Origin: Bacteroidota bacterium
GTDB lineage: Bacteria; Bacteroidota; Bacteroidia; Bacteroidales; Paludibacteraceae
Direction of reading: 5' to 3'
Assembly: GCA_017860345.1 (NCBI GenBank)
Contig: JAFNAV010000021.1
Location: 1-39,522 of the forward strand
DNA: 39,522 nucleotides
The number at the start of each line of letters is the position of its first letter. Position 1 is the stretch's first letter. The translations under genes and the position numbers were made by a program. Below the pieces are notes generated by a model, which saw only the letters and a program-made list of their open reading frames with translations, was not told where the DNA came from and did no database searches. Shown here in pieces: positions 12,441-20,043 of this stretch.

Positions 12441-13418
12441 TCATTTCCCCCTTTTTAAGTCCCCTTGTGGGGGATTTAGGGGGCTTTGTTTCTCATACGC
12501 TTCCACAATTCGCTGAACAAGATGGTGCCGTACAATATCTTTCACATCAAATTCTATCTTAGCTATTCCTTTTACGTTTTTGAGTACCTGCAGGGCATCA
12601 ATTAAACCTGATTTTTGTTGGTATGGCAAATCAATCTGGGTCATATCGCCTGTTACAATCATTTTGGTGTTCAGTCCCATGCGGGTCAGGAACATTTTGA
12701 TTTGCGAGGTAGTGGTGTTTTGAGCTTCGTCCAGAATGACCACTGCATCGCTCAGTGTTCGTCCGCGCATAAAAGCCAGCGGAGCAATCTGTATGGTGCC
12801 GTTCTCCATATATTCCTTTAGTTTTACAGGCGTAATCATGTCCTGTAAAGCATCGTAAAGCGGTTGGAGGTACGGATCAATCTTTTCCTTCATATCGCCG
12901 GGCAGAAAACCAAGCTTTTCGCCTGCTTCCACCGCGGGACGACTGAGGATAATCTTTTTAATTTCTTTGTTTTTCAGCGAGCGAACAGCCAGCGCAATAG
13001 CGGTGTAAGTTTTACCCGATCCGGCTGGTCCGATAGCGAAAAGCAAATCGTTGGTTTCAAAATCTTTGACTAACTTTTGTTGGTTCTTGGTGCGTGCCGT
13101 AATGGATTTACCGTTTACGCCATGCAGAATCAAATGGTCGAACTTCATTTCGGCAGGTTGACTTCCACCTTTCACTATTTCAATGATATTGGTTTCGGTC
13201 AGACTGTTATTGTCGATGCAATAACGTTCCAACTTTTGAAGCTTATCAATGAACTTCTCTGTATCTTCTTCGTTTCCTGATATTTTCAATACATGCCCGC
13301 GAGCAGTGAAGCGGATATTAGGATACAAATTGCGCAAAGTATGGACATTGCTGTTGTTTACACCATAAAAAACAATGGTGTCGGTATGTTCGGAGAGTTC
13401 AAAGATTTGCTCTATCAT
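12441..13418 (-). CDS. phoH: PhoH-family ATPase
   Basis: A cytoplasmic P-loop ATPase/putative RNA helicase of the PhoH (PhoL) family, implicated in RNA metabolism; the precise role is unsettled. An N-terminal KH-like/PhoH-associated region (1 to about 110) precedes the ATPase core, with Walker A GPAGSGKT (130-137), SRPAVEAGEKLGFLPGD, Walker B VVILDEAQN, and TGDMTQIDLP. Of its 325 residues, the last 14 (SPLNPPQGDLKRGK) do not belong to the family and are the translation of a repeat at 12444-12487, which also precedes the TGA stop directly. The start lies 13 bases after a four-helix-bundle element on the same strand. Confidence 0.94.
   Translation of the reverse strand: MIEQIFELSEHTDTIVFYGVNNSNVHTLRNLYPNIRFTARGHVLKISGNEEDTEKFIDKLQKLERYCIDNNSLTETNIIEIVKGGSQPAEMKFDHLILHGVNGKSITARTKNQQKLVKDFETNDLLFAIGPAGSGKTYTAIALAVRSLKNKEIKKIILSRPAVEAGEKLGFLPGDMKEKIDPYLQPLYDALQDMITPVKLKEYMENGTIQIAPLAFMRGRTLSDAVVILDEAQNTTTSQIKMFLTRMGLNTKMIVTGDMTQIDLPYQQKSGLIDALQVLKNVKGIAKIEFDVKDIVRHHLVQRIVEAYEKQSPLNPPQGDLKRGK
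12444..12487. repeat. GC-rich REP-like repeat forming the phoH 3' end
   Basis: A unit of alternating C and G runs (CCCCC TTTTTAAG CCCC TTGT GGGGG ATTTA GGGGG). CCCC/GGGG arms can fold on either strand. It lies inside the phoH reading frame and encodes its last 14 residues. Confidence 0.75.
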
Positions 13419-13431
13419 AAATATATACAGG

Positions 13432-13469
13432 AATAAGAGGTTAGAAAGTAAGAAGTAAGTAATTTGTTA
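13432..13469. repeat. Left inverted-repeat arm of element A
   Basis: Purine-rich AATAAGAGG, then TTAGAAAGTAAGAAGTAAG, then TAATTTGTTA. It pairs with the right arm at 13852-13899 apart from a few mismatches and a 7-10 base length difference. It covers the stop codon of the four-helix-bundle gene. Confidence 0.8.
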
Positions 13470-13832
13470 TCTTTTCATATTTGCTTTACTTGCTGAAAAA
13501 ATCTTTACAAGTTCATCAATCTCATTTTTAAGATTTATAAAAGCAGATTTATCTAAAAGTTCAGCCTCTTCAATCAGTTCAAACCAAAATTGTGTTTCAT
13601 CAATCTCTTCCACTACAATACACATTTTAGAGAATCTTTCAGCATGTGACCTTCCACGGGTAAAAGCCCTGAAGTTTGCCGCCACAGAAGTTCCTGACCT
13701 CAATAGCTGTTTCCCGATTACACGTAACTCTTCTGATTGCTTACAATATTTTGCGTAAAACAAAATTATTGCCACTGCAAATTTCTTAGTTCGTTGTCGG
13801 TACTTTTCATTGTAATCCAAAACTTCTGACAT
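13467..13832 (-). CDS. Four-helix bundle protein (S23/IVS family), copy A
   Basis: 121 residues, almost entirely helical, of the four-helix-bundle family first seen as the ORF inside Leptospira 23S rRNA intervening sequences and related to the Avd accessory protein of diversity-generating retroelements. The family signature is QLLRSGTSVAANF (43-55), followed by EEIDETQFWFELI. The protein is basic at both ends, which is compatible with nucleic-acid binding. Its molecular function is not established. Copy A diverges from the canonical GANIxEA motif more than copy B does. It lies inside the inverted-repeat element between glyA and phoH on the same strand. Confidence 0.88.
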   Translation of the reverse strand: MSEVLDYNEKYRQRTKKFAVAIILFYAKYCKQSEELRVIGKQLLRSGTSVAANFRAFTRGRSHAERFSKMCIVVEEIDETQFWFELIEEAELLDKSAFINLKNEIDELVKIFSASKANMKR

Positions 13833-13851
13833 ATTCTAAAAATCATTTAGC

Positions 13852-13899
13852 TTACAAATTACTTACTTTCTTACCTCTTACTTTCTTACCTCTATTATT
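13852..13899. repeat. Right inverted-repeat arm of element A
   Basis: Read on the minus strand it contains two tandem copies of the 15-mer AGAGGTAAGAAAGTA, followed by AGTAATTTGTAA. The left arm has a shortened version. The arm ends at the glyA stop codon (13898-13900). Confidence 0.8.
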
Positions 13900-15178
13900 A
13901 GTACGCAAACAGCGGATATGCCTCCATTGTTTTATTTACTTTTTCGCGAACGGAAGCGATGACTGCTTCGTTTTCAACATTCGAAAGTACGGTTTCGATC
14001 AGTTCTGCAATCAGTTCCATCAGGTCTTCTTTTGCTCCACGGGTAGTGATAGCAGGCGTTCCGAGGCGGATACCCGAAGTCTGGAATGCTGAACGGCTAT
14101 CGAACGGCACCATGTTTTTGTTTACAGTAATATCGGCTTCTACCAATGCTTTTTCGGCCACTTTACCTGTCAGTTCAGGGAATTTAGAACGAAGATCCAC
14201 CAACATGGAGTGATTGTCGGTTCCGCCTGAAATGATAGTAAATCCACGGCTGATTAATGCATTTGCCAAAGCAGCAGCATTTTTCTGTACCTGTGCCTGA
14301 TATGCTTTGTATTCTGGTTCCAAACATTCGCCGAAAGCCACGGCTTTAGCGGCAATCACATGTTCCAGCGGGCCGCCCTGAATACCGGGGAATACGGCTG
14401 AATCCAATAAAGCCGACATCATTTTTACTTCGCCTTTAGGAGTGGTTTTTCCCCATGGGTTAGGAAAATCTTTTCCCAACAAAATGATACCACCACGAGG
14501 ACCACGAAGCGTTTTGTGGGTAGTGGAAGTGACAATGTGTGCCCATTTTACAGGATTTTCGAGCAAGCCTGCTGCAATCAGTCCGGCAGGGTGAGCCATA
14601 TCGATCATCAATAACGCGCCTACTTTATCGGCAATTTCGCGCATACGTTTGTAATCCCATTCGCGTGAATAAGCCGAGCCTCCACCTACAATGAGTTTTG
14701 GTTTTTCGCGCAAAGCCACTTCTTCCATCTGGTCGTAATCCACACGTCCGGTTTCCTGACTTACATTGTACTCGGTAGGACGGTAAAGGATACCCGAACT
14801 ATTTACAAGCGAACCGTGCGAAAGGTGACCACCGTGCGCCAGATTCAAACCAAGGAAAGTATCGCCCGGATTCAAACAAGCCAAAAATACAGCAGCATTG
14901 GCCTGAGCACCCGAGTGAGGTTGCACATTGGCCCATTCGGCTCCGAAAATTTCTTTCAGTCGGTCGATGGCGATTTGTTCGCTCTGATCCACCACTTCGC
15001 AACCACCATAATAGCGTTTGCCCGGATAACCTTCGGCATATTTATTTGTCAACACCGAACCCATCGCTTCCATTACCTGGTCGCTCACAAAGTTTTCCGA
15101 CGCAATCAATTCAATACCTTTCATCTGACGCTGTTTTTCACGTGCGATGATGTCAAAAATAATCTGGTCTCTTTTCAT
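13898..15178 (-). CDS. glyA: Serine hydroxymethyltransferase
   Basis: A PLP enzyme converting serine plus tetrahydrofolate to glycine plus methylene-tetrahydrofolate, the main one-carbon source for purine and thymidylate synthesis. The 426 residues include [10 protein letters not shown] near 23-32, [11 protein letters not shown] near 88-98, and the PLP-lysine motif [15 protein letters not shown] with Lys222. Length and motifs are standard. It follows the HU-like gene by 24 bases. The next gene downstream is a four-helix-bundle gene whose element begins at the glyA stop. Confidence 0.97.
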
Positions 15179-15202
15179 TTTATCTATACTAATTATTAAT
15201 TT

Positions 15203-15583
15203 TTATTTCTCTCTTTCGAACCTGACATATTTCAGATTGCTTTTCAAATCATTCTCAGCCCGAAAGCATATTTTATTTGCTTTCACGCGGTGAGGCGTGC
15301 ATTCTTCGGGTGTATCGAAACCATCGCTCGTTGCCGAAATGCTGAACAAGCCCAAATTATCGAGCCGTACCGAGTAACCTTCCTGTAAATACTTTTCTAT
15401 CAACCCCGAAAGCCCTATAAGTGCTGAATGCACATCGCCTTCGGATAGCGAACTGATTTTGGTCAGGTCTTTTGCCAGTTGCCGGGTGGATATTTCGCCC
15501 GACCGCACAGGAACGGCATAGTATTTGGCTGTTTTTTCGCCAATTCCGCTCCGTTTTGTTTTTACTCTGTAACGAAATGACAT
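15203..15583 (-). CDS. Orphan HU-like DNA-binding protein
   Basis: 126 residues containing a divergent HU/IHF domain (about residues 25-100): STRQLAKDLTKISSLSEGDVHSALIGL for the helical dimerisation part, then YLQEGYSVRLDNLGLFSIS for the beta saddle, the latter close to the HU family pattern. The N-terminal extension RYRVKTKRSG and the C-terminal tail are typical of the Bacteroidota-specific orphan HU family (TIGR01201-like), which is distinct from housekeeping HU. Its role is probably nucleoid or local regulation. It has a predicted promoter at 15617-15624 and a cluster of palindromic sites just upstream, which it might bind. Confidence 0.85.
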   Translation of the reverse strand: MSFRYRVKTKRSGIGEKTAKYYAVPVRSGEISTRQLAKDLTKISSLSEGDVHSALIGLSGLIEKYLQEGYSVRLDNLGLFSISATSDGFDTPEECTPHRVKANKICFRAENDLKSNLKYVRFEREK

Positions 15584-15616
15584 AAAGCTAAGAATGAAAA
15601 TTATATTTCTACACTA

Positions 15617-15624
15617 CAAAATTA
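15617..15624 (-). promoter_or_regulatory. Predicted promoter -7 element of the HU-like gene
   Basis: TAATTTTG on the minus strand matches TAnnTTTG and lies 33 bases before the ATG. Upstream TTTG motifs exist, but at about 14 bases, closer than expected for -33. Confidence 0.5.
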
Positions 15625-15651
15625 CAAACTCCTGCTTACAAAATTTACTTT

Positions 15652-15730
15652 TGATGTATATCATGTTGTTCATTAGATGTACATCTAATATATGCTATGA
15701 TGTATATCTGATATTTACTCAGATGTACAA
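15652..15730. promoter_or_regulatory. Array of four GATGTAyA near-palindromic sites
   Basis: Within the 241-base gap between the CAT-like and HU-like genes. Sites: TGATGTATATCA (15652-15663); ATTAGATGTACATCTAAT (15672-15689, a perfect 18-bp palindrome); TGATGTATATCTGA (15698-15711); CAGATGTACAA (15720-15730). Centres are about 23 bases apart, close to two helical turns, so one face of the helix would be presented. They lie just upstream of the predicted HU-like promoter. The rest of the gap holds only a distant 7-bp inverted repeat (15745-15751 with 15790-15796). Confidence 0.6.
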
Positions 15731-15824
15731 CAAACAAAAATATCATCGGTATGCTTTCATAAACTGATACTAGCGTCTTTCAGAATTCGTACCGATTGTT
15801 TTATGATTTATTGCTCTAAGGCCG

Positions 15825-16451
15825 TTATGCCTGATGAAGCAATGCCTGAAATCTTTCCACAAACTTCCCTACATGAAAACCATCCAGCAATGCATGGTTG
15901 GCGTGAATATCCACCGGAAGCCACATTTTATCGCCATCGCGGGTGATTTTCCCGAAAGTGATTTTCGGTACACTCCGCGCTGCATCCCACATCCGGGCAT
16001 GATTTACCGCTGTAAAGTCGGCCCAGGGTAGGGTAGAGTAGTGGATAATGTCTTCTCTGTATTCGGAGAAACATAATCCGGTATTTGCTTTTACCCGTTC
16101 GTTCTCGAGCAGGGCGCTTTTCATAAATGCCTCAATATCTTCGTAAAACGAATAAAATCCGTATCCGAAGGTTTCATCTTCCCTGAAGATAGTGGGCCCG
16201 GCTCCAACGGATGCATAGCAATACACTTTATCATCCTCAATACGGTACCGGAATTCTTCTATTTCGTTCACCACTTTCAGCGACAAATATAAGTAATAAA
16301 GTGAAAACGGATACCCTTTTTCTTTAGCTGTTTGATAAGCCGAAGCGCACTCCACCTTTACGGTAATGCCGAAAAGCGGCTCATCGAATTGATTAAAGAA
16401 TTCAAAATGCTCCCGGCGTTTCCAGTTTTTTATGTCGATTTCATTTTTCAT
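15825..16451 (-). CDS. Type A chloramphenicol acetyltransferase-like protein
   Basis: 208 residues, the normal length for the trimeric CAT fold. The N-terminus WKRREHFEFFNQF matches the conserved CAT opening. The active-site region is HANHALLDGFHVGKF near 183-197; it keeps the catalytic His186 and the DG pair, but the first His of the usual HHxxxDG is Asn. Many chromosomal Bacteroidota members of this family lack proven chloramphenicol resistance, so the substrate is unknown. It begins 10 bases after the KilA-N gene. Confidence 0.88.
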   Translation of the reverse strand: MKNEIDIKNWKRREHFEFFNQFDEPLFGITVKVECASAYQTAKEKGYPFSLYYLYLSLKVVNEIEEFRYRIEDDKVYCYASVGAGPTIFREDETFGYGFYSFYEDIEAFMKSALLENERVKANTGLCFSEYREDIIHYSTLPWADFTAVNHARMWDAARSVPKITFGKITRDGDKMWLPVDIHANHALLDGFHVGKFVERFQALLHQA

Positions 16452-16461
16452 AAGTTAAAAA

Positions 16462-17274
16462 TTATTTCAATATTTTATTCTCATTCTTTTCCTGCAAAAC
16501 AGTCATTTGTTGAATAGCAGCTTTATTTAATCTAATGAGTCGTTCTTTTTGCTGAAGTCCATCGTTAATAAAAACAGCGTTTAAGTTTTCCATGTTCGAA
16601 AGGCAAATTAATTCGTTGATAGTTGCATAATCACGAATATTCCCTTTCAAATCCGGGTTTGCATCGCGCCATTCCTTTGCCGTTATTCCAAAAAGTGCCA
16701 TGTTCAACACATCTGCTTCGTTAGCGTAAACGTATGAAATTTGCATGGGCGTAAGTTCTTGCGGAATAAGATTTTGTTTGATAGCATCGGTGTGGATATG
16801 ATAATTGATTTTTGCCAGCTCGCGCTTTGCAGTCCATCCCAGTGCTTTCTGTTCTTCTTCCTTGAGACGTTGAAACTCTTTGACGATATATAACTCAAAT
16901 TCAACAGAAATCCAGCTTGCAAATTTGAAGGCGATGTCTTTATGAGCAAAAGTTCCACCGTAACGCCCCGATTTAGAGATTATTCCAATGGCATTGGTCG
17001 TTTCAATCCATTTTTGAGGTGAAAGTGTAAATGCATTTAAACCGGCTTCGCGTCTAAACCTCTCGAATTCGAGGGGTTTAAAATTCTGGTTATACAGATA
17101 CTCCCAAATACCAAGAAATTCAATTGTGTTTCTGTTTCGCAACCAATTAGCAATTACAGCATTTGCATCACTATTTTTATGTTTTGCAATGTCTGTAAGA
17201 GAAATGTAATCATCATCATCATCATTTATTTGAATGATTGTTACATCTGTGTTTTTTACATTGATTTTTGCCAT
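16462..17274 (-). CDS. KilA-N domain protein
   Basis: About 270 residues (275 if the upstream ATG at 17289 is used). The KilA-N domain, a DNA-binding fold first defined in phage and large DNA viruses, spans about residues 5-140: YISLTDIAKHKNSDANAVIANWLRNRNTI-like helices, an aromatic FKPLEFERF stretch, then SGRYGGTFAHKDIAFKFASW and a helical FQRLKEE segment. The C-terminal half is helical with EWRDANPDLKGNIRDYAT, a block shared by Bacteroidota chromosomal KilA-N proteins. They are commonly linked with mobile DNA; function is unknown. The shorter start is chosen because MAKINVKNTDVTII matches the usual family N-terminus. It starts 24 bases after the flavin reductase stop. Confidence 0.88.
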   Translation of the reverse strand: MAKINVKNTDVTIIQINDDDDDYISLTDIAKHKNSDANAVIANWLRNRNTIEFLGIWEYLYNQNFKPLEFERFRREAGLNAFTLSPQKWIETTNAIGIISKSGRYGGTFAHKDIAFKFASWISVEFELYIVKEFQRLKEEEQKALGWTAKRELAKINYHIHTDAIKQNLIPQELTPMQISYVYANEADVLNMALFGITAKEWRDANPDLKGNIRDYATINELICLSNMENLNAVFINDGLQQKERLIRLNKAAIQQMTVLQEKNENKILK

Positions 17275-17298
17275 GATATTATTTTTCAAGAAACAGTG

Positions 17299-17871
17299 TT
17301 ATTTCTTTTTCTTCTCTACCGTCCACCCGAATTTTCCAATTTCTTCACCCAGTTTGTAATAATGTCCGTGTGAATAAGCAATGAGTCTGGCTTTTTCCAA
17401 ATCAAATTTATCGGTTAAGGGATCGATAAACCGACTGTCGGCCTGCACGTTTACTACATCGGCTATAAACATATCGTGACTTCCCAAGGGAATAATTTCT
17501 TTTACCTTACATTCGATGGCTAAAGGCGATTCTGCTATCACAGGAGCTTTTACTTTCTCGCCGGGCACCGCTGTGAGCTTCATTTCTTTAAACTTATTGA
17601 AGTCGCGCCCGCTTTTCACACCACACCAGTCGGTAGCATAAGCCATTTCTTCGTTTGTCAGATTAATCACAAACTCTCCGCTTTCCTTAATAATGTGATA
17701 CGAATGCCGCTCCGGACGAACGGAGATATAACACATAGGCGGATTGGAACAGATAGTCCCCATCCAACTAAGCGTGATGAGATTGTAATCTGCCTCGCTA
17801 CTACCGCACGAAATCAGTGCCGCAGGCAGCGGATAAATCATGGTGCCGGGTTTCCAACTTACTTTTTTCAA
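17299..17871 (-). CDS. Flavin reductase-like FMN-binding protein
   Basis: About 191 residues with the split-barrel flavin reductase-like domain: PGTMIYPLPAALISCG, TLSWMGTICSNPPMCYISV, SYHIIKESGEFVINLT, then DWCGVKSGRD. It binds FMN and probably acts as a flavoredoxin or NAD(P)H:flavin oxidoreductase. An in-frame ATG at 17946 would overlap pyrI by 52 bases and add residues unlike the family, so the TTG at 17871, just before KKVSWKPGT, is preferred; it leaves a 23-base gap after pyrI. It lies in the pyr transcription unit. Confidence 0.85.
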   Translation of the reverse strand: MKKVSWKPGTMIYPLPAALISCGSSEADYNLITLSWMGTICSNPPMCYISVRPERHSYHIIKESGEFVINLTNEEMAYATDWCGVKSGRDFNKFKEMKLTAVPGEKVKAPVIAESPLAIECKVKEIIPLGSHDMFIADVVNVQADSRFIDPLTDKFDLEKARLIAYSHGHYYKLGEEIGKFGWTVEKKKK

Positions 17872-17894
17872 GATAATATCATTAAAATGACAAA

Positions 17895-18350
17895 CTATTT
17901 TATTTTCACTTCTTCGGCTTTCACTTCCCGTTCGCAATAACGACATTTCAAACGCACTTGTTCATCTTCTTTTATAACGATAAAGCGGGTTACCACAGGT
18001 TGATGATTGGTGATACAGTTGGGATTAGCACATTGCACCACTTCCCGTATTTCGTCCGGTAAAATCAGCGGACGTTTTTCCACCACTTCGAAATCGCGGA
18101 TAATATTGATTTTGGCATCCGGACAAATAAGAGCCAGTTTGTTGGTTTCGTTCTCGGCCAACGCTCGGTCGGCTATCTTCACCAAACCTTTCAATCCGAT
18201 TTTTTTGCTTTCCAGATTGTTGGCCAGTGTAATCTGATTGTCGCAGGTATCCAAATGCAGGATATGCACTACTTTGAATAATTTATCAGCCGGAATATGG
18301 TCAATCACCGTTCCGTCTCTGAGTGCCGCTACTTTTAATTTCTTTTCCAT
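17895..18350 (-). CDS. pyrI: Aspartate carbamoyltransferase regulatory subunit
   Basis: The regulatory chain of ATCase; it binds CTP/ATP and bridges catalytic trimers through a zinc domain. The 151-residue length is normal. The four zinc ligands are Cys107 and Cys112 (CANPNC) and Cys136 and Cys139 (CRYC). The N-terminal nucleotide domain has AALRDGTVIDHIP. It begins 11 bases after the left arm of inverted-repeat element B, so its translation start would lie next to the base of the predicted RNA stem. The family normally follows pyrB directly; here a four-helix-bundle gene intervenes. Confidence 0.97.
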   Translation of the reverse strand: MEKKLKVAALRDGTVIDHIPADKLFKVVHILHLDTCDNQITLANNLESKKIGLKGLVKIADRALAENETNKLALICPDAKINIIRDFEVVEKRPLILPDEIREVVQCANPNCITNHQPVVTRFIVIKEDEQVRLKCRYCEREVKAEEVKIK

Positions 18351-18361
18351 TATAATAAATT

Positions 18362-18389
18362 TGCCAATTATTTAATGTGCCAATATGCC
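18362..18389. repeat. Left inverted-repeat arm of element B
   Basis: Starts TGCCAATTATTTAATG and contains three direct copies of TGCCAAT-like heptamers (18362, 18378, 18386 with one change). It is an exact reverse complement of 18779-18806 and begins just after the four-helix-bundle stop codon. Confidence 0.95.
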
Positions 18390-18391
18390 GA

Positions 18392-18793
18392 TTATTGGGC
18401 TGTGTTGGCTTTTGATGAATTGATGATACTATTAATGATTCTCTGAATATCTTTTATTTCTTCCAATAGTTGGCTATCAAAAGGATAATTTTCAGAATGC
18501 TGACATAATAATAACCAGTATTCGGTTTCTTCGGCTTCTTTTGCCGCTATTTTAAACTTGTGAATAAAGTCTGCTTTGCTTTCACAATTTTGTGCCTCTC
18601 TGATATTTGCACCAATCGATGTTCCGCTTCTTAGTAATTGATTGGCAACAGCAAATTTTCTTTTTTCTTCAAGTAGCTCTGTAAATGTAATGATCTTCAG
18701 GGAAAAAGCAAAAGTCAAATCAACAATCTTATTTCCTGTGAGTTTTATCTCTATCCCCATAACTGCTGAGTCTTGATTGGCATATTGGCACAT
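18392..18793 (-). CDS. Four-helix bundle protein (S23/IVS family), copy B
   Basis: 133 residues from ATG 18793, or 122 from Met12 at 18760. Canonical family motifs are FAFSLKI, then QLLRSGTSIGANIREAQ, then AAKEAEETEYWLLL, all in predicted long helices. The family is known from ORFs inside 23S rRNA intervening sequences and from retroelement Avd proteins, which form pentameric nucleic-acid-binding barrels. The function of stand-alone copies is unknown. The first ATG overlaps the pyrB stop as TAATG, a layout that favours reinitiation, and lies within the inverted repeat. Met12 matches the usual family N-terminus better, so both starts remain possible. Confidence 0.9.
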   Translation of the reverse strand: MCQYANQDSAVMGIEIKLTGNKIVDLTFAFSLKIITFTELLEEKRKFAVANQLLRSGTSIGANIREAQNCESKADFIHKFKIAAKEAEETEYWLLLCQHSENYPFDSQLLEEIKDIQRIINSIINSSKANTAQ

Positions 18794-18806
18794 TAAATAA
18801 TTGGCA
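18779..18806. repeat. Right inverted-repeat arm of element B
   Basis: GGCATATTGGCACATTAAAT and on to TTGGCA, the exact reverse complement of 18362-18389. It contains the pyrB stop codon, the codons for its last residues (VPII) and the first possible start of the four-helix-bundle ORF. Confidence 0.95.
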
Positions 18807-19710
18807 CATTGTCCAACACTTTACTCACTATCGCTTGTCTTACGTACAGCCCGTTTTGTGCCTGTTGAAAATAATACGCCTTTTCGCTTGCATCTACGTC
18901 CATGTCTATTTCGGTCACGCGGGGTAGCGGGTGCAGAATTCGCAAATTGGGTTTAGAGTGTTCCAGCATCTCATTTTTGAGCGTATAAACGTTTTTTACC
19001 CGTTCGTATTCCATCAAATCCTGAAAACGTTCACGTTGTACACGTGTCATGTACAGAATATCGGCATCGTTGAAATTATCGTGTAATTCTATCGATTCAG
19101 TATATTTGATATTGTGTTTCTTGCAGAAAATCTTGTATTCTTCCGGCATCTTCAGTTCGTCGGGAGCAATAAATCTGAAAGTAGGGTTGAAGTGCGACAT
19201 GGCCATAATCAGTGAATGAACAGTCCGTCCGTATTTCAAATCTCCTACCAGACAGATATTCAGGTTTTCGAGCGTTCCCTGCGTTTTTAGTATAGAATAC
19301 AAGTCCAGTAATGTTTGCGACGGATGCTGGTTGGCTCCATCGCCGGCGTTTACAATTGGTACGGGTGAGATTTCAGCTGCATATCGGGCTGCTCCTTCGA
19401 GCGGATGCCGCATTACAATGGCATCGGCATACGAACTCACCATGTGAATGGTGTCGTTGAGCGTTTCTCCTTTCGACGAGCTACTGGTAGCCGCATCCGA
19501 AAAACCGATGATGGAACCTCCGAGCCGTATAACCGCTGTTTCGAAACTAAGTCGCGTACGGGTGGAAGGCTCGAAAAATAAGGTAGCTATCACTTTTCCA
19601 TCCAGAGTTTTACGGTTGGGATTGGCTTCAAATTCGGCAGCCGAGTCCAGAATGGATAATATTTCTTCTTTGCTGTAATCCGATATGGATACTAAACTAT
19701 TGTTACTCAT
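18793..19710 (-). CDS. pyrB: Aspartate carbamoyltransferase catalytic subunit
   Basis: Condenses carbamoyl phosphate with aspartate, the committed step of pyrimidine synthesis, as the catalytic trimer of a PyrB-PyrI holoenzyme. In the 305 residues, [13 protein letters not shown] (STRTR, 49-53) binds carbamoyl phosphate, [11 protein letters not shown] (129 on) and [10 protein letters not shown] contribute the rest of the active site. The final residues VPII and the TAA stop lie in the inverted repeat of element B, so the native C-terminus may have been replaced or trimmed; catalytic parts are intact. It is preceded by a promoter, a leader peptide and an attenuator-like terminator about 100 bases upstream. 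Confidence 0.97.
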
Positions 19711-19721
19711 AGAAATCCATA

Positions 19722-19738
19722 CCCCTTAAGGGGCTTTA
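19722..19738. repeat. GC-rich REP-like palindrome upstream of pyrB
   Basis: CCCCTTAAGGGG (19722-19733) is a perfect 12-bp palindrome, followed by CTTTA. It is similar in style to the units beside purC and phoH and lies 11 bases before the pyrB start, within the mRNA leader. Confidence 0.6.
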
Positions 19739-19751
19739 TGATTAATTATTA

Positions 19752-19778
19752 TTACAACTTAATTGTTTGCTGACGCAT
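19752..19778 (-). other. Possible second leader mini-ORF, 8 codons
   Basis: ATG CGT CAG CAA ACA ATT AAG TTG TAA encodes MRQQTIKL between the attenuator-like terminator and pyrB. It may be chance. If translated, it would come into play only after readthrough of the terminator. Confidence 0.25.
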
Positions 19779-19812
19779 GTTGTCCGCTCCGCAGAGACAG
19801 GTATACAGTTAT

Positions 19813-19854
19813 AAAAAAAACCAACACAAATCCGCTAAAGATTTACATTGGTTT
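19813..19854 (-). terminator. Attenuator-like intrinsic terminator upstream of pyrB
   Basis: On the minus strand AAACCAATGTAAATC (19854-19840) can pair along its full length with GATTTGTGTTGGTTT (19832-19818). The stem is 15 pairs with three adjacent G-U pairs and a 7-base loop, followed by eight U residues (19820-19813). The leader-peptide stop codon lies in the 5' arm, so a ribosome at that stop would block hairpin formation. It could instead simply terminate the upstream YdhG-like transcript. Confidence 0.75.
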
Positions 19855-19941
19855 CATATTGAATAAGGCAATTCGACCTATGCAACTATTTGAATGAAAG
19901 CTGCGCTGATCGAAAAGATATTTATAATTCCTTGATTTCAT
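19843..19941 (-). CDS. Predicted pyrB leader peptide (32 codons)
   Basis: A small ORF encoding MKSRNYKYLF, then DQRSFHSNSCIGRIALF, then NMKPM. Its ATG follows a run of A residues and lies only 13 bases after a TAnnTTTG promoter element, so the mRNA leader is very short. The UAA stop falls inside the 5' arm of the terminator at 19813-19854. There is no run of one amino-acid codon, so sensing of a single amino acid is not indicated. The layout resembles the E. coli pyrBI leader, in which ribosome-polymerase coupling senses UTP. That it is translated is inferred from position only. Confidence 0.6.
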   Translation of the reverse strand: MKSRNYKYLFDQRSFHSNSCIGRIALFNMKPM

Positions 19942-19953
19942 TTTTTATGGTTA

Positions 19954-19961
19954 CAAAGATA
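19954..19961 (-). promoter_or_regulatory. Predicted promoter -7 element of the pyr operon
   Basis: TATCTTTG on the minus strand, a full TAnnTTTG match, just upstream of the leader ORF and about 244 bases before pyrB. A TTTG at 19974-19977 is closer (12 bases) than the usual -33 spacing. The remainder of the 19711-20043 gap, toward the YdhG-like gene, shows nothing else recognisable. Confidence 0.55.
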
Positions 19962-20043
19962 TAAAATTTCCGACAAATATTCAGGTGATTTTTTACGATT
20001 GTTGATAAGTTTCTCTTTGGGGTTGTCGAAATTTTTAAACCAC

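Follow-up and report, generated by a model that had tools for sequence, protein, structure and literature searches.

The window analyzed here, a 39,522-nucleotide stretch of DNA from a member of the Paludibacteraceae (Bacteroidota), carries a small gene between pyrB and pyrI that is enclosed by two inverted arms. Taken in the direction of the genes, the features are these:

18793 to 19710, minus strand: pyrB, the host gene upstream of the element; profile matches confirm PyrB
18776 to 18810, minus strand: upstream (5') arm, from the inverted-repeat search, the arm alignment and the sequence
18395 to 18760, minus strand: IVP (four-helix-bundle) gene, ATG at 18760, 122 amino acids, stop codon at 18392 to 18394
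18358 to 18392, plus strand: downstream (3') arm, the reverse complement of the upstream arm with 2 mismatches
17895 to 18350, minus strand: pyrI, the host gene downstream, confirmed as PyrI; its start codon lies 7 nt past the arm

On the gene strand, the upstream arm reads AATGTGCC AATTATTT AATGTGCC AATATGCC AAT, with a period of 8. The arms are 35 nt long, pair with 2 mismatches (94%) and are spaced 383 nt apart; their perfect core of 28 bp runs from 18362 to 18389 and from 18779 to 18806, precisely the limits given in a preliminary description of this DNA, which had noted an S23/IVS-type ORF between perfect inverted repeats. With up to 3 mismatches allowed, the arm pattern occurs twice in the window, compared with a mean of 0.03 in shuffled sequence, where 1 shuffle in 100 reaches two. 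The gene and its two arms wholly take up the pyrB-pyrI gap, and a second gene would not fit. The upstream array also encodes the last PyrB residues, NVPII, and the stop codon; most relatives have other residues there.

The full ORF spans 18392 to 18793 on the minus strand; the ATG at 18760 is the likelier start, and a longer one at 18793 is possible. The ORF matches Pfam 23S_rRNA_IVP (PF05635) with 79 bits (cut-off, 33.8) and the TIGR02436 four helix bundle protein with 95 bits (cut-off, 24), in agreement with the earlier assignment to the family of the ORF inside 23S rRNA intervening sequences (IVSs). PF05635 is its sole Pfam match up to an E value of 1, and the element does not encode a Y1 transposase. 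The AlphaFold model is a confident four-helix bundle (mean pLDDT, 94.6). An Rfam scan of window positions 13000 to 20000 gave 0 matches. Elsewhere in the window, an ORF at 16462 to 17289 (minus strand), which we take to resemble a KilA-N-type protein, has an in-frame run of GAT codons close to its start.

With its terminal inverted repeats and no transposase, the element is built as a MITE is. It also has two of the marks of an IVS, an IVP/S23 ORF and complementary ends that form a long stem, and it shares with the rRNA IVSs both the protein family and the terminal inverted repeats (about 28 bp in IVSs, according to parts of the published descriptions). As passages of PMC4990558 have it, the Coxiella IVS measures 428 nt, compared with about 450 bp here, and carries three tandem GACAGAT heptamers before the S23 start codon, the stem of rRNA IVSs of the S23 family is cut by RNase III, and both IVS and S23 protein have been of unclear origin and function since about 1990. 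Unlike an rRNA IVS, the pyrB-pyrI element lies not within a 23S or 16S rRNA gene but between protein genes, has two-sided repeat arrays and comes from a genome with several IVPs. We regard it as a variant of the IVS kind rather than an IVS, because a location in rRNA is among the features that define the latter.

A second element, which we take to be the "element A" of the preliminary description, lies in the same window between ORFs reading as glyA and PhoH-like (names by reading):

13867 to 13893, minus strand: 5' arm, gene strand AGAGGTAAGAAAGTAAGAGGTAAGAAA
13467 to 13832, minus strand: second IVP gene, 121 amino acids, TIGR02436 70.5 bits
13436 to 13462, plus strand: 3' arm; arm score, 19.5

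Across the 3.27-Mb source assembly, PF05635 has matches at six places, and all six have inverted arms with a score of at least 14 (lowest, 15.5). The repeats of these arms differ, with AATGTGCC at pyrB-pyrI and leuC-leuD, GTAAGAAA at the second element of the window (13.5 kb), and repeats based on AATTATT, GACAACAG and AAATAAC at the remaining places. We saw no near-identical copies at two loci of this genome; the two IVPs of the AATGTGCC type share 73% identity. Nine further AATGTGCC-type places read in the source genome were 7 gene-less arm pairs and 2 single arms. The pairs always have AATGTGCC on the left and its reverse complement on the right, one of them in a tRNA spacer; the spacers between paired arms are too short for a gene, and the only IVP matches there come from the neighboring leuC-leuD element. 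In a tRNA cluster (by reading) of the same genome, at about 1400 to 1710 of contig C82 (L015, L039), two different gene-less inverted arrays adjoin in spacers.

How general are the arms? Scoring covered 93 IVP loci in 30 Paludibacteraceae genomes, with arms counted as present at a score of at least 14. This family set combined 35 loci from profile searches with 58 mostly full-length matches from nine IVP-rich genomes, the latter picked before scoring and regardless of their flanks; it took in part of the places found, with five duplicate fetches scored once, and it includes four loci with a stop codon and 35 pairs that share flank similarity (orthologous). Arms were present at 68 of the 93 loci; among 958 shifted intervals the rate was 0.5%, and among 519 mismatched flank pairs it was 3.3%. 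The other 25 loci fell below the threshold, and in individual genomes the yield was lower still (5 of 10 loci in G102 and 2 of 5 in G107). The best period among the 68 elements was 7 in 27, 8 in 11 and 14 in 16.

A cross-phylum set gave a similar result. It was drawn from the best 80 of at least 587 confirmed relatives in named genomes; three lay near a contig end, leaving 77 loci, one of which (Paludibacter sp. 221) is also in the family set. Among these best-matching relatives, 52 of 77 loci had arms and 25 fell below the threshold, with a control rate of 1.5% (15 of 1,019). The loci of this best-80 set come mostly from Bacteroidota, together with records titled Ignavibacteriae, Verrucomicrobiia, Planctomycetes, Clostridia, Betaproteobacteria, Omnitrophota and Methanophagales; because several records are metagenome bins, any one phylum label is uncertain. 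A plasmid protein search found 27 IVP places in 25 plasmid records, and all 11 annotated loci read there scored above 20 (a count without a control, 9 of them cyanobacterial and two pairs being the same locus in two plasmids). Phage records gave 2 IVP matches, and the one locus read by eye had no obvious heptamers. The preliminary description had proposed looking for inverted repeats around the four-helix-bundle genes of Bacteroidota genomes, and in both sets the enrichment is strong.

Gene-flank controls were low as well: 4 of 82 small ORFs of G016 passed (including an IVP and a Y1 transposase), as did 1 of 30 flanks at pyrI and 2 of 28 at leuD. With the shifted, mismatched and gene-flank controls all low, we rejected or at least marked down chance or low complexity as the source of the arms. 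An inverted-repeat scan of 400 kb of G016 gave 46 hits, most of them short hairpins, and a block-shuffled control gave 4; this stretch holds one IVP element, only one gene-less period-7 pair of that kind and five ACCCCTA-type copies. A separate inverted-repeat family, ACCCCTAACCCCTAAAGGGG and its variants, appears on contig C1 of G016 near 151784, 161627, 207013, 390211 and 458658 and at L309 and L298; it is made of 7-bp units, with a loop of about 50 to 60 bp and no ORF.

The arms are arrays of degenerate 7- to 8-bp repeats, usually G-rich towards the gene. In the family set, G exceeded C in the upstream arm of 57 elements, and the reverse was true of 10; among 51 elements of the cross-phylum set (best 80 of at least 587), the numbers were 47 and 2. 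Arm similarity rose with protein identity (r = 0.264 over 2,098 pairs from 68 elements, the pairs being nonorthologous loci in different genomes; 0 of 2,000 permutations). At protein identities below 0.5, arm cosine was 0.057 within genomes (133 pairs) and 0.049 between them (1,882 pairs), and on these figures we rejected, or at least lowered, the idea that the arrays are sequence typical of the host genome. Arm sequence follows the protein lineage, not the host genome. This codivergence could be explained by joint inheritance alone. The two arms of one element were more alike (0.69) than those of related elements (0.21), the former value being inflated because arms were picked as the best-matching stretches. 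Of 100 elements, only 13 had a unit order that agreed between the arms better than a shuffled order did (P < 0.05). In one Nostoc plasmid element, the perfect 40-nt arms both contain the same longer nonheptamer sequence, as though one were a copy of the other.

These properties bear on the suggestion that the arms are ordinary intergenic simple repeats gathered after insertion. Other short repeats do occupy these gaps in relatives, and unit order is often unmatched between arms, but control rates near 0.5 to 5% refute such an origin unless the controls are unfair, and both the codivergence with the protein and the consistent inward polarity argue against it; we consider it highly improbable.

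Within the genus, arrays tend to go with their protein. Across 48 genomes, AATGTGCC-type array matches had a median of 16 in the 19 with the cognate IVP clade (some with broken copies) and 2 in the 29 without it (P = 0.0002; P = 0.005 after subtracting 4 per carrier). There are array-rich genomes without a close IVP (G023, 78 matches; G008, 70; G014, 26; G026, 23) and genomes with an IVP yet few arrays (G009, 0; G005, 1). On the tree, 7 supported independent pairs gave a mean of 4.0 agreeing and 0.1 opposing (median P = 0.125), a test that is not significant alone because the pairs are too few. In G025, AATGTGCC also forms long one-way arrays of about 190 to 230 bp (C26:11718-11944 and C34:2930-3116) that are not inverted pairs.

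The distribution among relatives points to mobility. We found pyrI in 73 of the 80 relatives searched (the source genome included), and 29 of the 30 loci fetched were readable. The IVP gene is intact in the source genome and broken in G043; G026 has a gene-less arm pair in its place, and the gene is absent at the other 26 loci. The preliminary description had asked whether relatives show empty pyrB-pyrI junctions or always carry the gene there with nonpaired flanks; the latter is not the case, and its idea of a mobile-type element agrees with the enriched arms and the empty sites, which are not those of a fixed gene. Two of the 26 IVP-less gaps (L063 and L067) hold an ORF of about 850 bp that is methyltransferase-like by reading. 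At leuC-leuD, 30 loci from the 48 genus genomes had 4 IVP elements, 1 remnant, 12 GxxExxY elements and 1 repeat pair of the CCCCCTAAATCCCCC type; at the other 12, the gap measured 18 to 27 bp. The tree (39 genomes, 29 with a scored occupant) calls for 12 or more changes of occupant in this gap; it is weakly resolved, with 10 of 36 inner branches starred and 17 open. G013 and G025, which are sister species (support, 99), carry different occupants.

Plasmids provide direct comparisons of filled and empty sites. At three Nostoc plasmid sites, elements of 431, 469 and 589 bp replace 197, about 330 and 64 bp of target, respectively, and by eye we saw no target duplication in these three comparisons. 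In the second, the element splits a plasmid cytosine methyltransferase gene (L266 637-1533, L267 and L281) that is intact in relatives; the empty form carries the array unit CAATTCG at its left junction. On plasmids of Nostoc and Anabaena, IVP elements were also seen to separate cas2 from cas1 (L263 907-1263 and L264 916-1263), with relatives L278 and L279 having cas2-cas1 without one.

One might instead see here a nonmobile host gene whose protein regulates the operon it belongs to through leader repeats that it binds. The leuC-leuD IVP is indeed under purifying selection (dN, 0.03 to 0.07; dS, 0.4 to 1.9), and the codivergence of arm and protein, the sense orientation described below and the consistent polarity of the arrays (in the family set and among the best 80 of at least 587 relatives alike) would all suit such a role. 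However, a host gene of this sort does not account well for the empty and differently occupied sites, the gene-less arm pairs or the insertion inside a methyltransferase gene. In addition, for two of the six pairs compared, 4-fold differences are fewer in the leuC-leuD IVP than in its neighbors (P = 0.0006 and 0.005); in the remaining four the difference is not significant (P = 0.07 to 0.68). We judge this explanation improbable.

GxxExxY genes, which belong to an unrelated nuclease-type Pfam family (PDDEXK_3), follow the same short-gene-in-arrays plan and use the same leuC-leuD gap. In the Paludibacteraceae, inverted short-repeat arms flank 19 of 28 such loci, compared with 0 of 200 controls; the units are mostly 8 to 10 bp, with no G-rich polarity (11 to 7 of 19), and 20 of the 22 genes scored lie in sense between codirectional genes. 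The leuC-leuD GxxExxY genes (L288, L290, L292 to L295, L298, L304, L306, L307, L311 and L313; identity tested in three of these twelve, the others assigned by reading) sit between inverted arrays such as AACGCAAATTACGCAAAT. That two unrelated proteins share one architecture and one gap speaks for a class rather than a quirk of one family. The family of minimal elements suggested earlier is borne out and is wider than first described.

The elements keep a consistent orientation. In the family set, 85 of 92 scorable IVP genes lie in sense between codirectional neighbors and 1 lies in antisense; in the cross-phylum set (best 80 of at least 587), the figures are 64 and 2 of 70, and the remaining 6 and 4 loci have divergent or convergent neighbors. 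Pooled, with the same best-80 scope for the cross-phylum part, this makes 149 sense and 3 antisense of 162. In control comparisons, codirectional neighbors were common anyway at these loci (58 of 71 and 62 of 71 cases), and operons are here deduced from gene order. The left arm starts within 15 bp of the upstream stop codon, or overlaps it, in 58 of 68 elements. Selection for read-through expression explains the sense bias as well as any mechanism does.

This orientation is part of the case for an element acting at the RNA level, whose arms would pair in polycistronic mRNA, with RNase III cutting the stem and movement going through RNA. As RNA, the pyrB-pyrI arms form a 28-bp stem, and 0 of 100 shuffles fold equally well (z = -3.5). 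Relatives of the protein are similar to Avd, the reverse-transcriptase partner of diversity-generating retroelements; the similarity (Pfam bAvd) is found in 7 of 17 IVP members, with a best E value of 4.7e-7, and not in the window protein. Unlike the setting of Avd, reverse transcriptase does not appear to accompany the IVPs: RVT_1 was undetected in 14 of the 20 genomes with at least 3 IVP matches, among them G000 (the source genome, 86% complete), G016, G037 and G102, with 6, 9, 7 and 11 matches, and its counts do not follow those of IVP (rho = -0.02). Two of the RVT_1-negative genomes, with 9 and 11 IVP matches (8 and 10 above the cut-off), are single contigs. As for the stem, G.U wobble pairs are rarer than A.C mismatches (91 versus 136; P = 0.003, 119 elements). 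Selection for pairing in sense RNA would leave the opposite bias, so there is no sign of pairing kept in sense RNA. On these grounds, reverse-transcriptase dependence and upkeep of an RNA stem through wobble pairs were each rejected or at least lowered. The rRNA IVSs of the same family are processed in the proposed manner, as passages of PMC4990558 describe, and we still find an RNA-level element unlikely here. The preliminary interpretation thus holds in part: a family of minimal elements sitting in mRNA spacers, in sense between codirectional genes, is supported, and a maintained RNA stem and movement through RNA are not.

RAYT/REPIN systems offer another comparison, in which a single gene has flanking inverted repeats and gene-less repeat pairs lie elsewhere in the genome. 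The IVP gene likewise has inverted repeats on both sides, and these recur elsewhere as gene-less pairs; unlike in RAYT/REPIN, its protein is a helical bundle rather than a Y1 transposase, and its arms are 7- to 8-bp arrays that vary by clade. The element could nevertheless be a passenger mobilized in trans, as REPINs are, by an arm-recognizing Y1 transposase of the IS200/RAYT type. Y1_Tnp counts correlate with IVP counts (rho = 0.64; 0.54 after genome size), and in the 400 kb of G016, a Y1_Tnp gene was the only other one of 82 small ORFs with arms of at least 18. However, PDDEXK_3 counts correlate nearly as well (rho = 0.59, persisting after genome size), so the Y1 link may just reflect genomes rich in mobile elements; these counts take all matches at an E value of 0.001, fragments included, with G083 and G113 (low-scoring PDDEXK_3 matches only) set to zero. 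Y1_Tnp matches are missing from G121 (7 IVPs; 96% complete), from G116 (3 IVPs; 55% complete) and from G082, G089, G090 and G103, with 1 or 2 IVPs each, and the arms are arrays rather than REP palindromes. Mobilization by a Y1 enzyme seems to us improbable. At C1:247390-247843 of G016, a Y1 transposase gene lies between AGCCACGAAGTGGC palindromes and is likely a RAYT with its own repeats.

IVP genes and arms co-occur at unrelated loci, gene-less arm pairs exist, and relatives' sites are empty or otherwise occupied. We lean toward reading these observations as a minimal one-gene element whose protein recognizes its own array. IVP elements are widespread and, it appears, mobile, and the best known of their relatives interrupt rRNA genes. 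The element, about 450 bp long, has an IVP gene with an inverted array of degenerate 7- to 8-bp repeats on each side. We propose that the protein, a helical bundle with Avd-like sequence, is expressed from the host operon and not from a promoter of its own, that it binds its own array, and that such predicted binding may serve to keep or spread arm pairs, in cis and in trans. The solved structures 2rld and 2gsc, both named uncharacterized, match the IVP profile at 9e-33 and 4e-26; the IVP is probably ring-forming, because both of these relatives, alike to it by profile match, hold five chains per entry. New copies would arise at the DNA level, with a stretch of target replaced by an enzyme that the element does not carry, and the rRNA intervening sequences probably are members that landed in rRNA genes.

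Intergenic heptamer repeats present a related question. TAACTGA heptamers are described in Beggiatoaceae, cyanobacteria and Bacteroidetes as repeats without a settled cause, and the author speculated on a repeat-binding mobile protein (PMC4679880). Like IVP arrays, they are intergenic 7-bp tandem repeats, but they are direct repeats; the main text of PMC4679880 is without the terms "four helix," "S23" and "intervening," and the link between heptamers and IVP is drawn here. Among the matches listed in a search of titles and abstract openings, whose coverage excluded most subscription journals and all bioRxiv preprints, we found no report of IVP genes with inverted short-repeat arrays outside rRNA.

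More tentatively, the elements may represent an unrecognized class of recombinase-free mobile elements, each with one small gene (IVP or, separately, GxxExxY) in self-recognized inverted arrays, colonizing operon gaps in sense in bacteria and archaea and spreading gene-less arm pairs in trans; such a class may lie behind the rRNA IVSs and many intergenic heptamers, for example, those of cyanobacteria. If the protein does recognize its array, the questions of the IVS and S23 protein and of the heptamers could be tested using the purified protein, of 120 residues, and the repeat that goes with it. The elements would then exemplify a way to inhabit operons without a promoter or recombinase of one's own, and many genes annotated as "four helix bundle protein" or "GxxExxY protein" would be parts of mobile elements.
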